From assembly GCA_024280415.1 (NCBI GenBank), contig JAJRQE010000166.1:1-37304 (forward strand): a stretch of 37,304 bases of DNA, given 5' to 3'. Below, one piece after another: positions 5,994 through 34,186 of this stretch; the stretch's first letter is position 1; each line of letters opens with the position of its first letter. The stretch comes from Spirochaetota bacterium. Its GTDB lineage: Bacteria; Spirochaetota; Spirochaetia; B11-G9. Made by a program: the position numbers and the translations under genes. The notes under the pieces were generated by a model, which had not been told where the DNA came from, did no database searches, and worked only from the letters and a program-made list of their open reading frames with translations.

Positions 5994-6009
5994 CCTACAT
6001 TAATGTAGG
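5994..6009. promoter_or_regulatory. 16-bp perfect palindrome over the RBS of the sigma-54 activator gene
   Basis: CCTACATTAATGTAGG is a perfect 16-bp inverted repeat in the 46-base gap between pepF and the activator gene. Its right arm contains the AGGA that serves as Shine-Dalgarno for the ATG at 6017. The core TACATTAATGTA recurs at 7536-7547, and as TACATTTTTGTA at 7566-7577. It may be an operator bound by the activator itself (autoregulation) or an RNA hairpin hiding the ribosome-binding site. Confidence 0.55.
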
Positions 6010-6016
6010 ATCAGGT

Positions 6017-7543
6017 ATGCTGCAAAGTCAGATTCATTATCGCCGTAAGATTCAGGAACTTAACCTGCTTTTTGAAGTAAGCCAGACTCTGGACAGGAGT
6101 CTTGATCTGGATCTTATAATCCAGCCGGTACTCTCTGCCTTATCGGATGAACTTGGACTTCTCCGGAGCACAGTTACACTCTTTAACAGGCAATCTGAAA
6201 AAATTCAGATTGAAGCAGCTCATGGGCTCACTTCCAGTGAGAAGAAAAGGGGTGAATACCGGCTGGGAGAAGGTATAATTGGAAAAGTTATTAAAACAGG
6301 TGAGCCTGTTCTGGTTCCTAACATTACTGACAGCCCTGATTTTCTTGATAAAACCAAAACAATCGATAAGCACACCAGAGGAAAATTGGCATTTATCTGT
6401 GTCCCTATTAAAATTGAAAACCAAACTATCGGGGCTTTAAGCGGGGATCGCCAGTCTTCAGATATGAAAGAGCTTGAAGAAGATATAAAAGTACTCGCCA
6501 TAATAGGATCAATGATAGCAGGAGCTGTAAAAATCAGAAGAAAGGTACAGGAAGAACAGGAAAAACAGCTTAATATATCCCGTGATTTTAAAACTTCTCC
6601 TATTATCGGAAATTCTAATTCAATGATCGAAGTATTCAATCTCATAAAGCAGGTTGCCGGTAGTGACGCAACAGTGCTCATTAGGGGAGAAAGCGGAACA
6701 GGTAAGGAACTTGTTGCCCATGAAGTACATAAAAACAGTCTAAGGAATAATAAAGCCTTTATTAAGGTAAATTGTGCAGCCCTCCCGGAGACTATCATAG
6801 AAAGTGAATTATTCGGTCATGAGAAGGGGGCTTTTACAGGGGCAGTATCCAAAAGGTTAGGAAGATTTGAGCTGGCAGACAGGGGAACAATTTTTCTTGA
6901 TGAAATAGGAGATCTATCCCCTGCAATGCAGGTAAAACTCCTTAGGGTTCTTCAGGAAAAAGAGTTTGAACGGGTCGGAGGATCTGAAACGATTCTTGTA
7001 AATGTCAGAATTATAGCAGCTACAAACCGACCTCTGGAAAAACTGATGGGAAAAAATCTATTTCGTGAGGATCTGTACTACCGGCTGAATGTATTTCCAA
7101 TCCATCTCCCACTCCTTAAGGATCGCAGAAGTGATATTATGCTTTTAGCAGATTTTTTTACCGAAAAATATGGTAAAATTTCGGGAAAGCCAATTCGACG
7201 AATATCGACTCCTGCTATAGAACTTTTTATGAGCTATCACTGGCCTGGAAATATAAGGGAACTCGAAAATTGTATAGAGAGAGCTGTCCTTTTGAGTTCA
7301 GATGGGGTTATCCATGGACACCTCCTCCCTCCTAGCCTGCAAAGTGCTGAATCTACAGGGACTCAACTGAATGAAACACTTAAAGCTGCTGTTGAGAAAC
7401 TTGAAAAGGATCTTATTTTTGATGCGCTCAAATCAACTAAAGGCAACAGGGCTAAAGCAGGAAGACAGCTTGGATTAACAGAGCGACAGATGGGGCTTAG
7501 GGTAGAAAAATATAAAATTGAAACATCAGCTTTGTTACATTAA
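6017..7543 (+). CDS. NifA/NtrC-type sigma-54-dependent transcriptional activator with N-terminal GAF domain
   Basis: Enhancer-binding protein for sigma-54 RNA polymerase. Layout: GAF sensor domain (about 12-170), a short coiled linker (172-190), the AAA+ domain with Walker A GESGTGKE (224-231), GAFTGA (271-276), Walker B FLDEIGDL (293-300) and WPGNIREL (409-416), then a Fis-type helix-turn-helix (about 464-500). GAFTGA, the loop that touches sigma-54, is intact. Domain order and length (508 aa) match NifA and related GAF-type regulators rather than NtrC, as there is no receiver domain. No Cys pair in the linker like that of oxygen-sensitive NifA. The neighbour is glnN, with a clear sigma-54 promoter, so the likely role is control of ammonium assimilation. 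Whether it controls nif genes elsewhere cannot be seen. Confidence 0.92.
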   Translation: MLQSQIHYRRKIQELNLLFEVSQTLDRSLDLDLIIQPVLSALSDELGLLRSTVTLFNRQSEKIQIEAAHGLTSSEKKRGEYRLGEGIIGKVIKTGEPVLVPNITDSPDFLDKTKTIDKHTRGKLAFICVPIKIENQTIGALSGDRQSSDMKELEEDIKVLAIIGSMIAGAVKIRRKVQEEQEKQLNISRDFKTSPIIGNSNSMIEVFNLIKQVAGSDATVLIRGESGTGKELVAHEVHKNSLRNNKAFIKVNCAALPETIIESELFGHEKGAFTGAVSKRLGRFELADRGTIFLDEIGDLSPAMQVKLLRVLQEKEFERVGGSETILVNVRIIAATNRPLEKLMGKNLFREDLYYRLNVFPIHLPLLKDRRSDIMLLADFFTEKYGKISGKPIRRISTPAIELFMSYHWPGNIRELENCIERAVLLSSDGVIHGHLLPPSLQSAESTGTQLNETLKAAVEKLEKDLIFDALKSTKGNRAKAGRQLGLTERQMGLRVEKYKIETSALLH

Positions 7544-7547
7544 TGTA
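7536..7547. promoter_or_regulatory. Upstream palindrome 1, candidate enhancer site for glnN
   Basis: TACATTAATGTA overlaps the stop codon (7541-7543) of the activator gene. It matches the core of the palindrome at 5994-6009, including the trailing AGGAT. Its centre lies about 134 bases before the start of the -24/-12 promoter at 7674, within the usual range for sigma-54 enhancer sites. Confidence 0.55.
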
Positions 7548-7565
7548 GGATTGTTTTTTTTATCA

Positions 7566-7577
7566 TACATTTTTGTA
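7566..7577. promoter_or_regulatory. Upstream palindrome 2, candidate enhancer site for glnN
   Basis: TACATTTTTGTA followed by AGAT. It begins exactly 30 bases after the preceding palindrome, close to three helical turns, so both sites would face the same side of the DNA. This is the spacing expected for cooperative binding of activator dimers. Confidence 0.5.
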
Positions 7578-7673
7578 AGATTATAGCTGACAAAATACCT
7601 AATAGATTAGAAAAACAACTTCTTCCTCAACAGTACAGCAGGGCTTGTCAAAATATGGCTAATTTATACATAC

Positions 7674-7690
7674 TTGGCACACTTTATGCT
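7674..7690 (+). promoter_or_regulatory. glnN: Sigma-54 (-24/-12) promoter of glnN
   Basis: TTGGCACACTTTATGCT matches the sigma-54 consensus TTGGCAC-N5-TTGCW with a single change. The invariant GG (7676-7677) and GC (7688-7689) are separated by exactly 10 bases. Transcription should begin near 7701, with the AAGGAG ribosome-binding site and ATG 7728 following closely. Confidence 0.85.
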
Positions 7691-7727
7691 GCTTAATAAA
7701 TACTAATCTATCAAGGAGCAAAAAAAG

Positions 7728-9848
7728 ATGAATAAAACAGATTTCAAGAAAACACCGGTAAATGAGATTTATGGAATTAACTCATTCGGGGATGCTGTAA
7801 TGAGAGAGCGCCTGCCTAAATCTGTTTATAAGGAACTTAAACTTGTTCAGGAAGGTAATAAGGGATTATCTCCTGATATAGCAGAAGTCGTGGCAAATGC
7901 CATGAAGGATTGGGCTCTGGAACGGGGTGCCACCCATTATACCCACTGGTTTCAGCCGCTTACAGGTTTAACAGCAGAGAAACATGACTCCTTTATTTCC
8001 CCAACTTCTGATGGAAGAGTAATAATGGAATTCTCAGGAAAAGAACTGATTCAGGGAGAACCTGATGCTTCTTCATTCCCAAGTGGTGGTCTGCGAGCTA
8101 CTTTTGAGGCCAGAGGCTACACTGCCTGGGACACAGCCTCCCCTGCATTTCTTAAAGAAGATAACTCCGGAGGTGTGACCCTCTGTATACCTACAGCCTT
8201 TATCTCCTATACAGGGGAGGCTCTCGATATGAAGGTTCCGCTTCTCCGTTCCATGGATGCAATAAATAAACAGGCCATGAGGATTCTTACTCTACTTGAA
8301 ATGGATGCAGACAGGGTAACAACGTCGGTCGGGCCCGAACAGGAGTACTTCCTTATCGATAAAGATTTTTATGATAAACGACCGGATCTGATGCTGACAG
8401 GAAGGACAGTAATCGGATCAAAACCATCTAAAGGTCAGGAAATGGATGACCATTACTTTGGTGCCATTAAGGAACGTGCTTCTGCATTTATGAGCGAATT
8501 AAATATGGAATTATGGAAACTGGGGATAGCGGCAAAAACTCAGCACAATGAGGTTGCTCCAAATCAGTTTGAGATTGCACCCATCTTTGACACAACAAAT
8601 GTAGCAACAGACAGAAACCAGCTTCTCATGGAAACTCTTAAGAAGGTAGCAGCCAGGCACAATCTTGTTGCACTCCTCCATGAAAAACCCTTTGCAGGTG
8701 TGAATGGATCAGGAAAACACAACAACTGGTCAATGAGTACAGATAAAGGTGTAAATCTACTTGAACCGGGAGATGACCCCACTGATAATGCTAATTTTAT
8801 TCTTTTTCTTGTTGCAATTATTAAGGCTGTTGATAAATTTGCACCTCTCCTAAGGATGTCTGCGGCAAACTCGGGAAATGATCACAGACTGGGAGCCAAT
8901 GAAGCCCCGCCGGCAATAATTTCAGTCTTTCTAGGAGATCAGCTTACCGATATTCTGGATACTCTTGCAAATGGTGAAAAATACCAGTCTGAGGGAAAAG
9001 AATCAATTGAACTGGGAGTTTCAACTATTCCTAAATTACCAAAGGATCTAACCGATCGAAACAGAACCTCACCATTTGCCTTTACAGGAAATAAGTTTGA
9101 ATTCAGAATGGTTCCTTCATCAATGTCTATTGCAAATCCCAATATAATAATAAATGCTGCTGTAGCAGATGTTTTATCAGAATTTGCCGATGAAATGGAA
9201 AAATCAAATAATCTGAACAAGAGCATGAAGGAAATAATAGCCCGGACTTACAACGAACATAAGAGGGTAATATACAATGGTAATAACTATTCCGATGTAT
9301 GGATAAAGGAAGCTTCGAAAAGAGGACTTGCAAATATAACAAATACTGTAGATGCATTAACTGAATTTCCCAAAGATTACTCTGTAGATCTTTTCGAACG
9401 TCATAATATTTTAACCAGGCAGGAAATTGAGTCCAGACATGAAATACAGCTTGAATCCTACAGCCAGCAGATAAACATTGAAGCTGAAATAATGATCGAA
9501 CTGACCAAAAAGCAGGTTCTTCCGGCAGCTGGGAAATTTATAAGAGATCTTGCAGAAACAATTAGTGGGTTAAAACAGGGAAATAGTCCATTTTCTTCCT
9601 TTGAGAACATTCTATCAGAAACAGCTTTAAATTCTGAAATACTCTACAAACGAATTGTTCTTCTACAGGAAACACTGACAAAAGCACAAAATATTGAAAA
9701 TTCCCCTTTAAAACAGGCTAAGGAATATAGGGAAAATGTATTTACTAAAATGGAAAATCTTAGAGAAGTTTCCGATACTCTGGAAACAATGATCCCATGT
9801 GAACTTTGGCCCATTCCAACTTATCTTGATCTTCTTTTTAGATTGTAA
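7728..9848 (+). CDS. glnN: Glutamine synthetase type III
   Basis: ATP-dependent ligation of ammonium to glutamate, the entry point of nitrogen assimilation. At 706 aa it has the long GSIII form (GSI is about 450-470 aa). The N-terminal block ([20 protein letters not shown]), [11 protein letters not shown] (201-211), [10 protein letters not shown] (273-282), [10 protein letters not shown] (326-335) and [13 protein letters not shown] (384-396) are characteristic GSIII motifs carrying the metal and glutamate ligands. The C-terminal helical part (about 570-700) is the GSIII-specific extension. AAGGAG stands 8 bases before the ATG. Transcription is predicted from the sigma-54 promoter at 7674-7690, under the adjacent activator. 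GSIII is not controlled by adenylylation, so transcriptional control may be the main level. Confidence 0.95.
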
Positions 9849-28564: not shown

Positions 28565-30169
28565 TTACTTCTTTTCCTCATCTTTAACTAATTTATAAAT
28601 TAGAGACTCTACAAGCGCCTGCCAGGATGCATCAATAATATTATCGGAAACACCAACAGTACTCCAGCGATTTTCATCGTCTGCAGTAATAATCATTACT
28701 CTCGTTGTAGAGTTGGTCCCCTCTTCTGCATTCAGTATTCTGACCTTATAGTCAACCAGATGAGCTTTCTTCAATTCGGGATAAAACTTCTCCAGAACTT
28801 TCCTAAGAGCTTTATCCAGAGCCTCAACAGGACCACTTCCATCTGCAGATGTGTGTTCAATGTGGGACTCATAGCCATGTTCGGCTGCAACTTCCTCAGG
28901 GACAGCAGCTTTAATTGTAGCTTCTGCCCATGATTCTCCATCGGCATTTTTCCATATTATAATTCTGTAGCCATGGAGTTCAAAATAACGCTTCTGAGTA
29001 CCCATCAGGGCATTAGTCAGGAGTTCGAAGGAAGCTTCGGCTCCTTCATAATGGTAGCCCTTGGCTTCAAGCTCCTTTACCCTCTTTAGAATTTTACCAG
29101 CTTTCTCACTGTCACTTCTAAGATCAATACCCATCTGTTCAGCTTTTTCTATTATATTACTTCTTCCTGATAACTCGGAAATAGTTATTACCCTCTCATT
29201 TCCAACAGACTCAGGAGTTATATGTTCGTAGGTAGCAGAATTTTTACGTACAGCAGAGACATGTATTCCACCCTTATGGGAAAAAGCCTTTTTCCCAACA
29301 AAGGGAAGCCCGTCAGGATGGGTCTGATTAGAAATTTCAGTTACCAGATGGGATATATAGTAGAGCTGTTTTAAATTTTCAGGAGGAACAGTCGTATAGT
29401 CTCCCTTTATTGATAAATTAGGAATAACGGAACAGAGATTTGCATTACCACACCGTTCTCCAATACCATTGATTGTTCCCTGCACCATGGCTGCACCATG
29501 TTTTACTGCAGCAAGAGAGTTTGCGACGGCAAGTTCCGAATCATTATGCGCATGGATCCCAATAGGTTTTGTAAATTGTGACCGCACAGTATCTACAGTA
29601 CTTGTCACAAAATCGACCATTGAACCACCATTTGTATCACAGAGAACCAGCCAGTCAGCACCGCCCTTTTCGGCAGCAGCTAAAGTTTTGAGTGTATATT
29701 CAGGGTTTGCCCTGTAACCATCAAAAAAATGCTCAGCATCATAGATTACTTCATCAAAATATTTCTTCAGATACTCCATAGTGGAGTAGATCATATCGAG
29801 ATTTTCCTCTTCCGTTGTTTTCAGAGCGTCCCTGACATGAAGATCCCAGCTCTTTCCGAATATTGTCACAACAGGAACTCCGGTCTCAATCATCCTTGCA
29901 ATATTTTTATCATCTTCAACTTTAATATTCTTCATTCGGGTCGATGAAAAAGCTGTCATTTTTGCATTTTCAAGCTTTATACTCTTCATCTCCTCAAAAA
30001 AAGCAACATCTTTAGGGTTTGAACCCGGCCATCCCCCTTCTACATAGTGAACACCGAATTCATCCAGCTTCCTGGCGATTTTTATCTTGTCATTTACAGT
30101 AAAATTTATTCCCACACTCTGGGATCCGTCCCTGAGTGTGGTATCAAATATTTTTATACTCTTATTCAT
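28565..30169 (-). CDS. cimA: (R)-citramalate synthase
   Basis: Condenses pyruvate and acetyl-CoA to citramalate, giving 2-oxobutyrate for isoleucine without threonine deaminase. The DRE-TIM barrel has [10 protein letters not shown] (8-17) and the metal site HAHND (206-210). The long C-terminal LeuA-type regulatory domain (about 400-525) follows. The [13 protein letters not shown] segment (42-54) distinguishes CimA from 2-isopropylmalate synthase. Length 534 aa fits. It overlaps ilvD by 8 bases, with GAGGAG upstream of the ATG, and is the last gene of the ilv operon. No terminator-like hairpin is visible after it. Confidence 0.92.
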
Positions 30170-31835
30170 TTCCGGGTCTCCTCAGAACAGCTCCGGTATA
30201 TGCTGACTGAACAAAATGAGAGTATCGCCCCAGAAAACTGTTTCCAAGATCCTTTCGTTTTATCTCCAGATTTGCCAGTCTGTTTTTTATTTCCTCCTCG
30301 GGGATATCCAGGTTTAAAGTTCGTTTATTAAAATCAACTTTAATAGTATCACCTTTATTGACGACAGCTATTACCCCGCCCTCTGCAGCTTCCGGAGAAA
30401 GGTGACCAATTACAGCACCCGTAGACCCTCCGGAAAACCTTCCATCTGTAATAAGCACAACATCTTCGATCAGACCCATACCAACGAGGGCTGCAGTTGG
30501 AGAAAGCATCTCCCTCATTCCTGGCCCCCCTTTGGGTCCTTCATAACGGATTACTACAACATCACCTTTTTTAATCTTCCCTGCAAGGATCTCTTTGGAA
30601 GCAAGCTCTCCGTCATTATATACAACTGCCGGACCCGAATGTTCCCTGATCTGGTCAGATACTCCTGCAATTTTTACTATTGCACCGTTTTCTGCAAGAT
30701 TTCCATAGAGAACAGCAATACCCCCTTCGGAATGGTAAGGTTTATCAATTGGGCGGATAACTTCTGAATTTGAAGATTCAGAAGCGCTTGCAATTTCACC
30801 TATGGATTTAAAACTTACACTCAAAGCCTCTTCATTTAAAACTCCAAGATTCTGAACTCTGTTAAGGAGTGCTGAAACTCCCCCTGCTCTGTGGAGATCC
30901 TCGATATGATGATCCCCTACCGGAGACAGGTTGCAGAGATGAAAAACCTTTTTTGAAAGTTTGTCAAAAAGATCGATAGAAAATGGAATATCAAAACTAT
31001 CAGCTATAGCAGGGAGATGGAGAGTTGTATTTGTGGAACCTCCCATTGCAAGATCCACTGCAACAGCATTATGAAAGGAATCGGCTGTAACTATATCTCT
31101 TGGTTTAAGATCCCGATCAACCAATCTCATAACCTGCATTCCTGTTTCTTTTGCAAGACGTATTCTGGCACTGTCCACAGCAGGAATAGTTCCGTTTCCA
31201 GGAAGAGAAACTCCAAGAGCCTCACTTAGAGCATTCATCGAGTTTGCAGTAAAAAGACCGGAACACGATCCGGCTCCCGGACAGGCATTATTTTCTATGG
31301 TCTTAAGCTCTTTCATATCTATCTCACCCTTGGAATAACTTCCAACAGCTTCAAAAACTGAAACAAGATCTATGGGTTTGCCATCGTAAACTCCGGCCAT
31401 CATAGGACCTCCGCTTATAAGGAGCGAAGGTACATTCAGCCTTCCCATTGCCATGAGCATACCAGGAGTAATTTTATCACAGTTGGAAATAAATACTATA
31501 CCGTCAAAAGGAGTTCCTGTAGCAACAACCTCTACTGAATCGGCAATAACATCCCTGGAAGGAAGGGAAAAATACATTCCCTGATGATCCATTGCAAGGC
31601 CATCACATATTCCAATTGTTGAAAAAGCCATAGGTGTTCCACCAGCCATTCTGATTCCGGCTTTTACAGCATCCTCTATGGTTTTAAGGTGCATATGACC
31701 AGGAATTACTTCACTCGCAGATGAAGCCACACCAATAATAGGCTGGGCAATTTCTGTATCTGTTAATCCCAGAGCTTTGAGTAAAGATCTGTGCGGTGCC
31801 CGTTCAACACCTTTTTTCATTCTATCACTTCTCAT
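30162..31835 (-). CDS. ilvD: Dihydroxy-acid dehydratase
   Basis: Iron-sulfur enzyme that dehydrates 2,3-dihydroxy-isovalerate and the isoleucine counterpart to keto acids. Cys119 ([10 protein letters not shown]), Cys185 and Cys191 ([10 protein letters not shown]) supply the cluster-binding motifs, and [18 protein letters not shown] is the C-terminal signature. Length 557 aa is normal. Near residues 37-45 the usual NS-x-NE block reads SSASE, a small deviation in a normally conserved site. GAGGT lies 6 bases before the ATG. Cotranscribed between ilvN and cimA. Confidence 0.95.
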
Positions 31836-31860
31836 ATATTTACCTCTTTTATCTCTTTCC

Positions 31861-32370
31861 CTAATTGTATGGATTATCCCATCTGTTCATTGCTACAATT
31901 CCGGTTCTTGCTACATCAATAATCTGATGAGGTTCCAGTAGTGCCAAAAATGAATCAATTTTATCCGAATCTCCTGTTATCTCCACAATAAAACCGTTGG
32001 TACCGACATCCACAACATTTGCCTTAAAAACACTGATAATCTGAAGCATTTCATGACGCTCTTTACCAGAGGCTTTCACCTTTATAAGACAAATCTCACG
32101 ACCAGCCATCCTGTTCTTATTGATGGGAACAACTTTCACAACATCAATTATCTTATACAACTGTTTCTGTATCTGCTCAATACTCCTGTCGTCACCCTTA
32201 ACAACTATAGTAAGACGAAACATATCATTCTGACGTGTGGGACCCGCAGAAATGGAGTCTATATTAAATCCCCTTCTTGTGACAAGGCTTGTAACCTTCG
32301 AAAGAACACCAGGATTATTATGAACCAGTACTGCCACTATATGATCAGTATATCCATTGTCACTATTCAT
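31861..32370 (-). CDS. ilvN: Acetolactate synthase small (regulatory) subunit
   Basis: Regulatory partner of IlvB. An N-terminal ACT domain (about 9-83) contains [20 protein letters not shown], the valine-binding region; the C-terminal half matches the ALS small-subunit domain. Length 169 aa is typical of the IlvH/IlvN type in Gram-positive and spirochaetal bacteria. AGGGAG precedes the ATG, 9 bases after the ilvB stop. Confidence 0.93.
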
Positions 32371-32379
32371 ATCTACTCC

Positions 32380-34047
32380 CTACAACTTTGTAATTACTTC
32401 ACTCAGAGATTTTCCTGCAGGTACCATAGGCAGAACATTTTCCTCCGGGTCTACTGCTGCATGAACAAGCATACTATCTTCACTCTCTGCAAGATCCCTG
32501 ATTACAGCCTCAACCTTCTCAGGATCTTCCAGAAAAACAGCCCTAATATTAAAAACTTCAGCAAGTTTTACAAAGTCGGGATTAAATTCCATATCTGTTC
32601 CGGAATAACGTCTGTCAAACAGCAGTTCCTGCCACTGACGAACCATTCCAAGATAGTTGTTGTCAAGAATTATCATCTTTACCTTCAGATTATATTTTCG
32701 AACAATTCCAAGTTCCTGCATATTCATCTGGAATCCTCCGTCCCCTGCAAACATGAGAATCTGTTTATCAGGATTCCCAACTGCTGCACCCAGAGCGGCG
32801 GGAAGACCGTAGCCCATGGTACCGAGCCCCCCGGATGAGAGAAAACTTCTTGGATGACGTATCCTGAAATGCTGGGCAACCCAAATTTGATTCTGACCAA
32901 CATCTGTAGCAACTATAGTATCTTCAGGGAAATATCTCCTGGCTAATTCTATAATATTCTGAGGTTTGATTCTCTTTCCCGGGGTATATACCAGGGGATA
33001 TTCCTCTTTATACTTAACAAGTTCAGATCTCCAGTCAGATATTGAAAGACGGATCTCCCTGCTGTTCAATTCCTTTAATACTGATTTTGCAGAGCCTACT
33101 ATTGGAAGATCCACAGATATATTTTTACCTACTTCTGCAGGATCAATATCGATATGAATAATTTTTGCATTTTTACCGTAAGTTTTTGCATCCCCTATTA
33201 TTCTATCCGAAAAACGGACACCTACAGCTATGATAAGATCTGAATTCCGAATAGCATAGTTGCCGTACAGAGTCCCATGCATTCCTATAAAACCAAAAAA
33301 CTGGTCATCATTAGAAGGATTAACTCCCTTACCCATGAGGGTGTGCACAACAGGAATACCTGTTTTGTCCAGAAACTCGTTCATTTCTGCCATAGCATTA
33401 CCCAGATTCACCCCTCCCCCGGACAGGACAAGAGGTTTTTTAGATTCTTCAAGAAGCGTTACAGTACTATTAATCTGTTTTGGATGCCCTGAATCTTTGG
33501 GTTTATAACTCTGCAGACTAATTGTTTCAGGATAGTTAAACTCTGCTTCCTGTTTTTGAATATCCCCTGGAATATCGATAACAACAGGGCCGGGTCTCCC
33601 TGTAGTTGCTATGTAGAAAGCTTTTTTTATGGTTATTGCAAGATCTTCAACATCCTTAACAAGGAAGTTTGCTTTTGTAATAGGCATGGTAATACCTGTT
33701 ACATCAGATTCCTGGAATGCATCTGTTCCTATGAGCGAGGAAGACACCTGACCAGTCAGGACTACCAGGGGACTGGAGTCCATATAGGCTGTTGCAATTC
33801 CTGTAATTGTATTTGTCGCACCAGGCCCTGAAGTAACAATTACTACACCTGGATTTCCGGTAGAACGTGCATAACCGTCTGCAGCATGGGTTCCCCCCTG
33901 TTCATGTCTGGGCTGAATAAGCTTCAAACCATCCCCATGCTTGTAGAGTTCATCAAAAATTTTAATGACAGCACCGCCGGTATAGCAGAAAACTGTATCG
34001 ACTCCTTCCTTTTTAAGGCTCTCAACAATTATTCTGGCACCATTCAT
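32380..34047 (-). CDS. ilvB: Acetolactate synthase large (catalytic) subunit
   Basis: Thiamine-diphosphate enzyme forming acetolactate or acetohydroxybutyrate, the first common step of branched-chain amino-acid synthesis. The catalytic Glu49 is in RHEQGGTHAADGYA, the central FAD domain follows, and the ThDP motif starts as GDGGFQMNMQEL near residue 435. At 555 aa it has the expected length. The frame is open back to 34110, but ATG 34047 follows GGAGGAGG and the promoter lies within the longer frame, so 34047 is the start. First gene of the operon. Confidence 0.95.
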   Translation of the reverse strand: MNGARIIVESLKKEGVDTVFCYTGGAVIKIFDELYKHGDGLKLIQPRHEQGGTHAADGYARSTGNPGVVIVTSGPGATNTITGIATAYMDSSPLVVLTGQVSSSLIGTDAFQESDVTGITMPITKANFLVKDVEDLAITIKKAFYIATTGRPGPVVIDIPGDIQKQEAEFNYPETISLQSYKPKDSGHPKQINSTVTLLEESKKPLVLSGGGVNLGNAMAEMNEFLDKTGIPVVHTLMGKGVNPSNDDQFFGFIGMHGTLYGNYAIRNSDLIIAVGVRFSDRIIGDAKTYGKNAKIIHIDIDPAEVGKNISVDLPIVGSAKSVLKELNSREIRLSISDWRSELVKYKEEYPLVYTPGKRIKPQNIIELARRYFPEDTIVATDVGQNQIWVAQHFRIRHPRSFLSSGGLGTMGYGLPAALGAAVGNPDKQILMFAGDGGFQMNMQELGIVRKYNLKVKMIILDNNYLGMVRQWQELLFDRRYSGTDMEFNPDFVKLAEVFNIRAVFLEDPEKVEAVIRDLAESEDSMLVHAAVDPEENVLPMVPAGKSLSEVITKL

Positions 34048-34075
34048 TATTTCCTCCTCCATTCCTGAAATTAGA

Positions 34076-34103
34076 ATTATATAGATCAGATATACAGTGT
34101 CAA
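34076..34103 (-). promoter_or_regulatory. Promoter of the ilvB-ilvN-ilvD-cimA operon
   Basis: On the minus strand a perfect TTGACA (34098-34103), a 16-base spacer and a perfect TATAAT (34076-34081). Transcription should begin near 34069, leaving a leader of only about 22 bases, too short for an attenuator or T-box. Confidence 0.8.
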
Positions 34104-34186
34104 TAGACATCAGACATAAAGCTTTTTGTGGTCTCGATGGTAGGGGATTATTTTCGTCTTCCCTATCCCGTTTTCCGCTTTTTAAA

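Follow-up and report, generated by a model that had tools for sequence, protein, structure and literature searches.

In this study, two near-identical palindromes in front of glnN, the gene for a type III glutamine synthetase in a Spirochaetota bacterium, were analysed, and they very probably constitute the enhancer of this gene, bound by the NifA-like GAF activator encoded next door and acting on a sigma-54 promoter. The window is the whole of the analysed stretch of DNA, 37,304 nucleotides long. As judged by sequence comparison, the cis/trans regulatory pair is real, conserved and functionally coherent, and its regulon is broad and mostly undescribed. The features of the locus are as follows.

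5996-6007, no strand: predicted single operator TACATTAATGTA, within CCTACATTAATGTAGG, upstream of the activator gene; probable autoregulation site (from sequence)
6017-7543, plus strand: NifA-like one-component sigma-54 activator with GAF, AAA+ (with GAFTGA) and Fis-type HTH domains (Pfam GAF, Sigma54_activat, HTH_8)
7536-7547, no strand: predicted distal enhancer site TACATTAATGTA, overlapping the activator stop codon
7566-7577, no strand: predicted proximal enhancer site TACATTTTTGTA, starting 30 bp after the distal one
7674-7690, plus strand: sigma-54 (-24/-12) promoter TTGGCACACTTTATGCT, matching 11 of 13 consensus positions (from sequence)
7713-7718, plus strand: Shine-Dalgarno sequence AAGGAG of glnN (from sequence)
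7728-9848, plus strand: glnN, type III glutamine synthetase of 706 amino acids, the predicted target gene (Pfam GSIII_N, 1.3e-77, and Gln-synt_C)

The glnN locus and its genome

The first-pass annotation had described the gene adjoining glnN as a GAF-type sigma-54 activator with an intact GAFTGA loop, and both the Pfam domains and the sequence agree. The protein combines the Sigma54_activat AAA+ domain, including GAFTGA, with an HTH domain, as is expected of a sigma-54 enhancer-binding protein; Pfam detects no NtrC-type N-terminal receiver domain, the N-terminal domain being GAF instead. At the loop, the two closest relatives of this protein read GAFTSA and GAFTNA. The gene rpoN, the absence of which would have spoken against a sigma-54 promoter, is present in the genome.

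The palindromes and the promoter were both recovered where the annotation had placed them. The two sites start 30 bp apart (coordinates checked on the sequence), 138 and 108 bp upstream of the sigma-54 box, and the distal site overlaps the end of the activator reading frame, final codons and stop included (TTA CAT TAA). The box, TTGGCAC-N5-ATGCT, carries GG and GC at exact -24/-12 spacing. A third palindrome, which had been overlooked, lies directly before the activator ATG (6017) and is identical to TACATTAATGTA. Single exact copies of TACATNNATGTA number three in the whole genome (3.91 Mb, 338 contigs), and two of these flank the activator gene; the third, on contig C237, was set aside owing to its position between convergent gene ends. 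Under a Markov-1 model of 3.91 Mb, 0.0004 exact doublets and 3.7 single copies of TACATNNATGTA are expected by chance.

When the same genome was scanned for pairs of TACA-N4-TGTA sites at 30-bp spacing, as many as three mismatches being allowed, one exact match (at glnN) and 31 weaker matches were obtained, compared with 21 matches to a reversed control pattern. One of the weaker matches, with three mismatches, lies upstream of the amtB-glnK operon, where TACATAAACGTA and CACATTTACGTA are spaced by 30 bp and accompanied by the sigma-54 box TTGGCATACCACTTGCT. From the first site to the GG there are 161 bp at amtB-glnK and 140 bp at glnN, so that the two arrangements differ by 21 bp, or two turns. 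From its sequence, amtB-glnK is probably also a target of the activator via this degenerate doublet. A second amtB gene (contig C166) has neither a convincing site nor a convincing sigma-54 box. Elsewhere in the window (28565-34110, minus strand), reading of the translations revealed a run of branched-chain amino-acid genes, with open reading frames resembling 2-isopropylmalate/citramalate synthase, ilvD, ilvN and ilvB.

Conservation, spacing and phasing of the doublet

Homologs of the activator were found in Spirochaetota, Desulfobacterota, Hydrogenedentes, Omnitrophota, Nitrospirota, Verrucomicrobiota, Margulisbacteria and others, with amtB, glnK, glnN, glnA or gltB nearby in about 30 loci. 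Site pairs separated by 10-60 bp were collected at the homolog loci, a test that is not conditioned on a 30-bp spacing; of 30 such pairs, 14 were spaced by 30 bp and four by 31 bp, compared with a total of 1.75 pairs, none of them at 30-31 bp, in shuffled loci. Conservation beside orthologous glnN genes had been proposed as a check on the enhancer, and both the palindromes and their 30-bp spacing are indeed kept there and beside many other nitrogen genes. Furthermore, a site with at most one mismatch, usually single, is found upstream of the activator gene in 64 of 121 loci (nine in shuffles), which suggests autoregulation; for homologs of at least 55% identity, such a site lies within about 200 bp upstream in 32 of 36 cases. 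The activator thus probably controls its own gene through a single upstream site, as far as sequence indicates.

An unbiased scan covered 393 Spirochaetota genomes, most of them metagenome-assembled and not phylogenetically independent of one another; the doublet, at no more than one mismatch in 16, was found in 62 genomes. The matches numbered 94 in the forward pattern and 32 in the reversed control, the latter mostly in one genus. The genes recovered were amtB-glnK, glnN, glnA, modA and nifV-nifA-nifH, and sigma-54 boxes accompany most of the doublets. Among 65 distinct doublets that were inspected, 37 precede amtB, glnN or glnA (21 amtB or amtB-glnK, ten glnN and six glnA), four an amino-acid ABC binding protein gene, three a molybdate-type binding protein gene and/or nifV-nifA-nifH, and two an activator or EBP-like gene, while six lie inside genes; some weak matches inside genes are due to chance. 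Among 50 further genomes, which belong almost entirely to other phyla, 13 doublets and one control match were found, the doublets preceding glnA, amtB, glnK-amtB, glnN and nifH; that of Desulfatibacillum alkenivorans stands before nifH-nifI1. Read from these positions, the targets outside the present genome probably include glnA, modA, nif and amino-acid transport genes.

Orthologs of the activator (E ≤ 1e-114) are present in 85 of the 393 genomes and in 48 of the 62 doublet genomes, an association (odds ratio 27, p = 7e-26) from which the kinship of the genomes has not been removed. The reversed control pattern is not associated with the activator (odds ratio 0.7, p = 0.65). There are 37 activator genomes (of 85) without a doublet at up to one mismatch, and 14 doublet genomes without a clear activator, some of the matches in the latter lying inside genes and being due to chance.

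Several further arrangements were observed at individual loci. At three loci (L138, L139 and L147), amtB is preceded by arrays of three sites in 30-bp steps. The doublets at L127 (genome G003) and L129 (G016) are good ones accompanied by sigma-54 boxes, both in genomes without a clear activator ortholog. In the diazotrophic spirochaetes at L161 (G375) and L165 (G371), a second activator paralog lies within a nifV-nifA-nifH run, and this run has the doublet in common with a divergently oriented gene for a molybdate-type binding protein; the L161 paralog scores above the NifA cut-off. In five genomes (G343, G345, G363, G372 and G245), the homologs adjoining a doublet align over the AAA+ and HTH part only, with 58-65% identity from about residue 190 and a different or diverged N-terminal region. 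To judge from this alignment, these proteins perhaps serve the same operator in response to a different signal.

The form of the site was derived from the 61 distinct doublets that have a good sigma-54 box; their consensus is CTACA-WWWW-TGTAG. The motif initially proposed, TACAT-N2-ATGTA, is too narrow, because the four central bases can be nearly any A/T combination; CTACA-W4-TGTAG fits the 61 doublets better. The distances from doublet to promoter repeat with a period of 11.1 bp (n = 61, nR2 12.6, jitter p = 0.0005; kinship of the sequences not removed), which is close to the helical repeat of DNA loops in vivo and is as expected from DNA looping. The spacing counts in the phylum scan, in the further genomes and in most of the 61-doublet set are conditioned on the search pattern, whereas the phasing in this set is not. 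Taken as a whole, the sequence comparison shows the site, the spacing of the doublet, its link with sigma-54 nitrogen promoters and the activator, and its helical phasing.

Proposed mechanism and alternative explanations

In the mechanism that we propose, each CTACA-W4-TGTAG palindrome would bind one activator dimer, and two dimers about three helical turns apart would nucleate the AAA+ ring. Through a loop in the DNA, the ring would contact the sigma-54 polymerase at 7674-7690, and it would open the promoter when nitrogen is scarce. Ring assembly and looping contact with the sigma-54 polymerase are the general mechanism of bacterial enhancer-binding proteins (PMC7057263). The GAF domain would sense nitrogen status, and by analogy with the GAF domain of NifA, for which there is precedent (PMC9866876), the signal is probably 2-oxoglutarate and/or GlnK. 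The single site over the activator leader may act as a brake on the synthesis of the activator itself. From sequence, we infer the identity of the binder and, for each site, whether activation or repression takes place. The earlier proposal that the activator drives glnN from these sites has gained comparative support, and it was too restrictive in one respect, since the set of targets is wider than glnN alone.

Several other explanations of the palindromes were considered. They might be operators of another nitrogen-responsive factor, the adjoining activator being either a bystander or itself controlled through them. This is unlikely: the 14 doublet genomes without a clear activator ortholog, two of them with convincing promoters, are in its favour, but the doublets adjoin the activator gene, co-occur with it, and lie upstream of and helically phased to sigma-54 promoters, which need an enhancer-binding protein. 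Even less likely, the activator could be a conventional NifA acting through the standard nif enhancer, TGT-N10-ACA. This reading draws on the best NCBIfam model for the activator, which is NifA (TIGR01817), and on the paralog in a diazotrophic spirochaete that passes the cut-off of this model and sits in a nif operon. However, the score of the activator itself, 510.6 bits, is below the cut-off of 528.85, and no nifH or other nitrogenase reductase gene was found in the 97.7% complete genome (best match 2e-7), so that the organism is probably not diazotrophic. Moreover, the two sites together yield TGT-N20-ACA rather than N10, and proteobacterial NifA is placed elsewhere in the tree, in which the window protein belongs to a supported clade of 19 members from Spirochaetota, Desulfobacterota and others; only supported inner clades were used, since the tree held poor outgroup rows (one a fragment). 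Scarcely credible is a terminator of the activator gene, formed by a palindrome and a T run. A run of eight T does lie between the two sites, but a hairpin of the form TACAT-TA-ATGTA leaves no space for its loop, relatives keep the two sites and the 30-bp spacing with a spacer that is not T-rich, and the same palindrome also stands before the activator gene; the terminator was rejected on these grounds.

A further possibility concerns novelty and is compatible with an enhancer at glnN: the system may be a spirochaete copy of the DVU1949 nitrogen regulon predicted for Desulfovibrionales in 2015. We consider this somewhat improbable, yet a serious candidate. DVU1949 is presented as a one-component sigma-54 activator whose nitrogen regulon comprises nine operons, its own included (PMC4641369), and homologs of the present activator in many Desulfobacterota adjoin amtB, glnK, glnA and gltB. 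On the other side, the text consulted mentions neither a 30-bp doublet nor a pairing with glnN, and no activator was found beside iorAB among the loci compared. Identification of DVU1949 through its iorAB neighbours was abandoned, the candidate upstream gene in locus L244 being an NAD synthase. The open-licence literature yielded no report of the operator paired with glnN or amtB in spirochaetes.

With the palindromes read as an enhancer for the adjoining activator, a wider proposal can be made, for which we would claim slightly less than an even chance. A NifA/AnfA-like one-component GAF activator, and not NtrBC, may be the general regulator of ammonium assimilation in a number of phyla (Spirochaetota, Desulfobacterota, Margulisbacteria, PVC and others). 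Its enhancer would consist of two CTACA-W4-TGTAG sites, one per dimer, at a fixed spacing of 30 bp and phased to the promoter at 11 bp per turn; diazotrophs of these phyla would have added nif genes to this regulon, in spirochaetes via a duplicated activator. Such an operator code would be a concrete one for a nitrogen regulator in bacteria without the textbook layout. It would allow the regulon of uncultured phyla to be read from sequence, and it would place type III glutamine synthetase under the same family of sensors as ammonium transport and nitrogen fixation. The fixed doublet and its 11-bp phasing would also offer a way to test the looping of sigma-54 enhancers in vivo.

Comparison with known nitrogen regulators

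In the enteric NtrC-glnA enhancer, two dimer sites separated by about three turns precede a sigma-54 promoter, and the glnN locus resembles it in having paired sites at about this distance before a sigma-54 glutamine synthetase promoter. However, NtrC is a phosphorylated response regulator that recognizes GCAC-type sites before a type I glnA, whereas a GAF one-component protein, another motif and a type III synthetase are found here. The claim that the pairing differs from NtrC-glnA holds for the GAF domain and the synthetase; its distinctiveness is reduced in that a non-NtrC one-component nitrogen regulator, DVU1949 of Desulfovibrio vulgaris, had already been predicted to regulate itself together with genes of nitrogen metabolism and transport (PMC4641369). 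DVU1949, a one-component sigma-54 nitrogen regulator, was compared by the description of its regulon.

NifA shares with the activator the GAF-AAA+-HTH layout and is both its best NCBIfam model and, as the Nif-specific regulatory protein 9qq6, its closest solved chain. The activator differs in scoring below the model cut-off, in its genome without nif genes, in its operator and in its recognition helix, which reads TERxMGLR in the window protein and close relatives and TPRQVAYR in proteobacterial NifA. None of the marks of the NifA equivalog (a score above the TIGR01817 cut-off, control of nif genes and a TGT-N10-ACA operator) was found for the activator. Each site reads TACA-W4-TGTA, in agreement with the first-pass annotation that the palindromes fit neither NifA nor NtrC sites.

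The suggestion of a new motif stands in this respect and is weakened in another, as the sites fit the AnfA consensus TAC-N6-GTA, which occurs as distal and proximal sites before the anfH promoter of Rhodobacter capsulatus (PMC7294313). TACA-N4-TGTA is a case of this consensus, and the paired sites upstream of a sigma-54 promoter, with a GAF-type activator encoded next door, correspond to an AnfA-type operator. However, AnfA drives Fe-nitrogenase, whereas ammonium assimilation is concerned here, in a genome in which no nitrogenase reductase gene was found; the A/T-only centre and the 30-bp spacing are features seen in the present sites, and anfH was compared by the form of the dyad and not by spacing. 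At the level of the protein rather than of binding sites, the activator is also comparable to Nlh1 of Aquifex aeolicus, the GAF chain of which (4g3k) its own GAF domain matches, and which is a NifA-like GAF activator with a presumed role in nitrogen assimilation and not fixation (PMC9866876).
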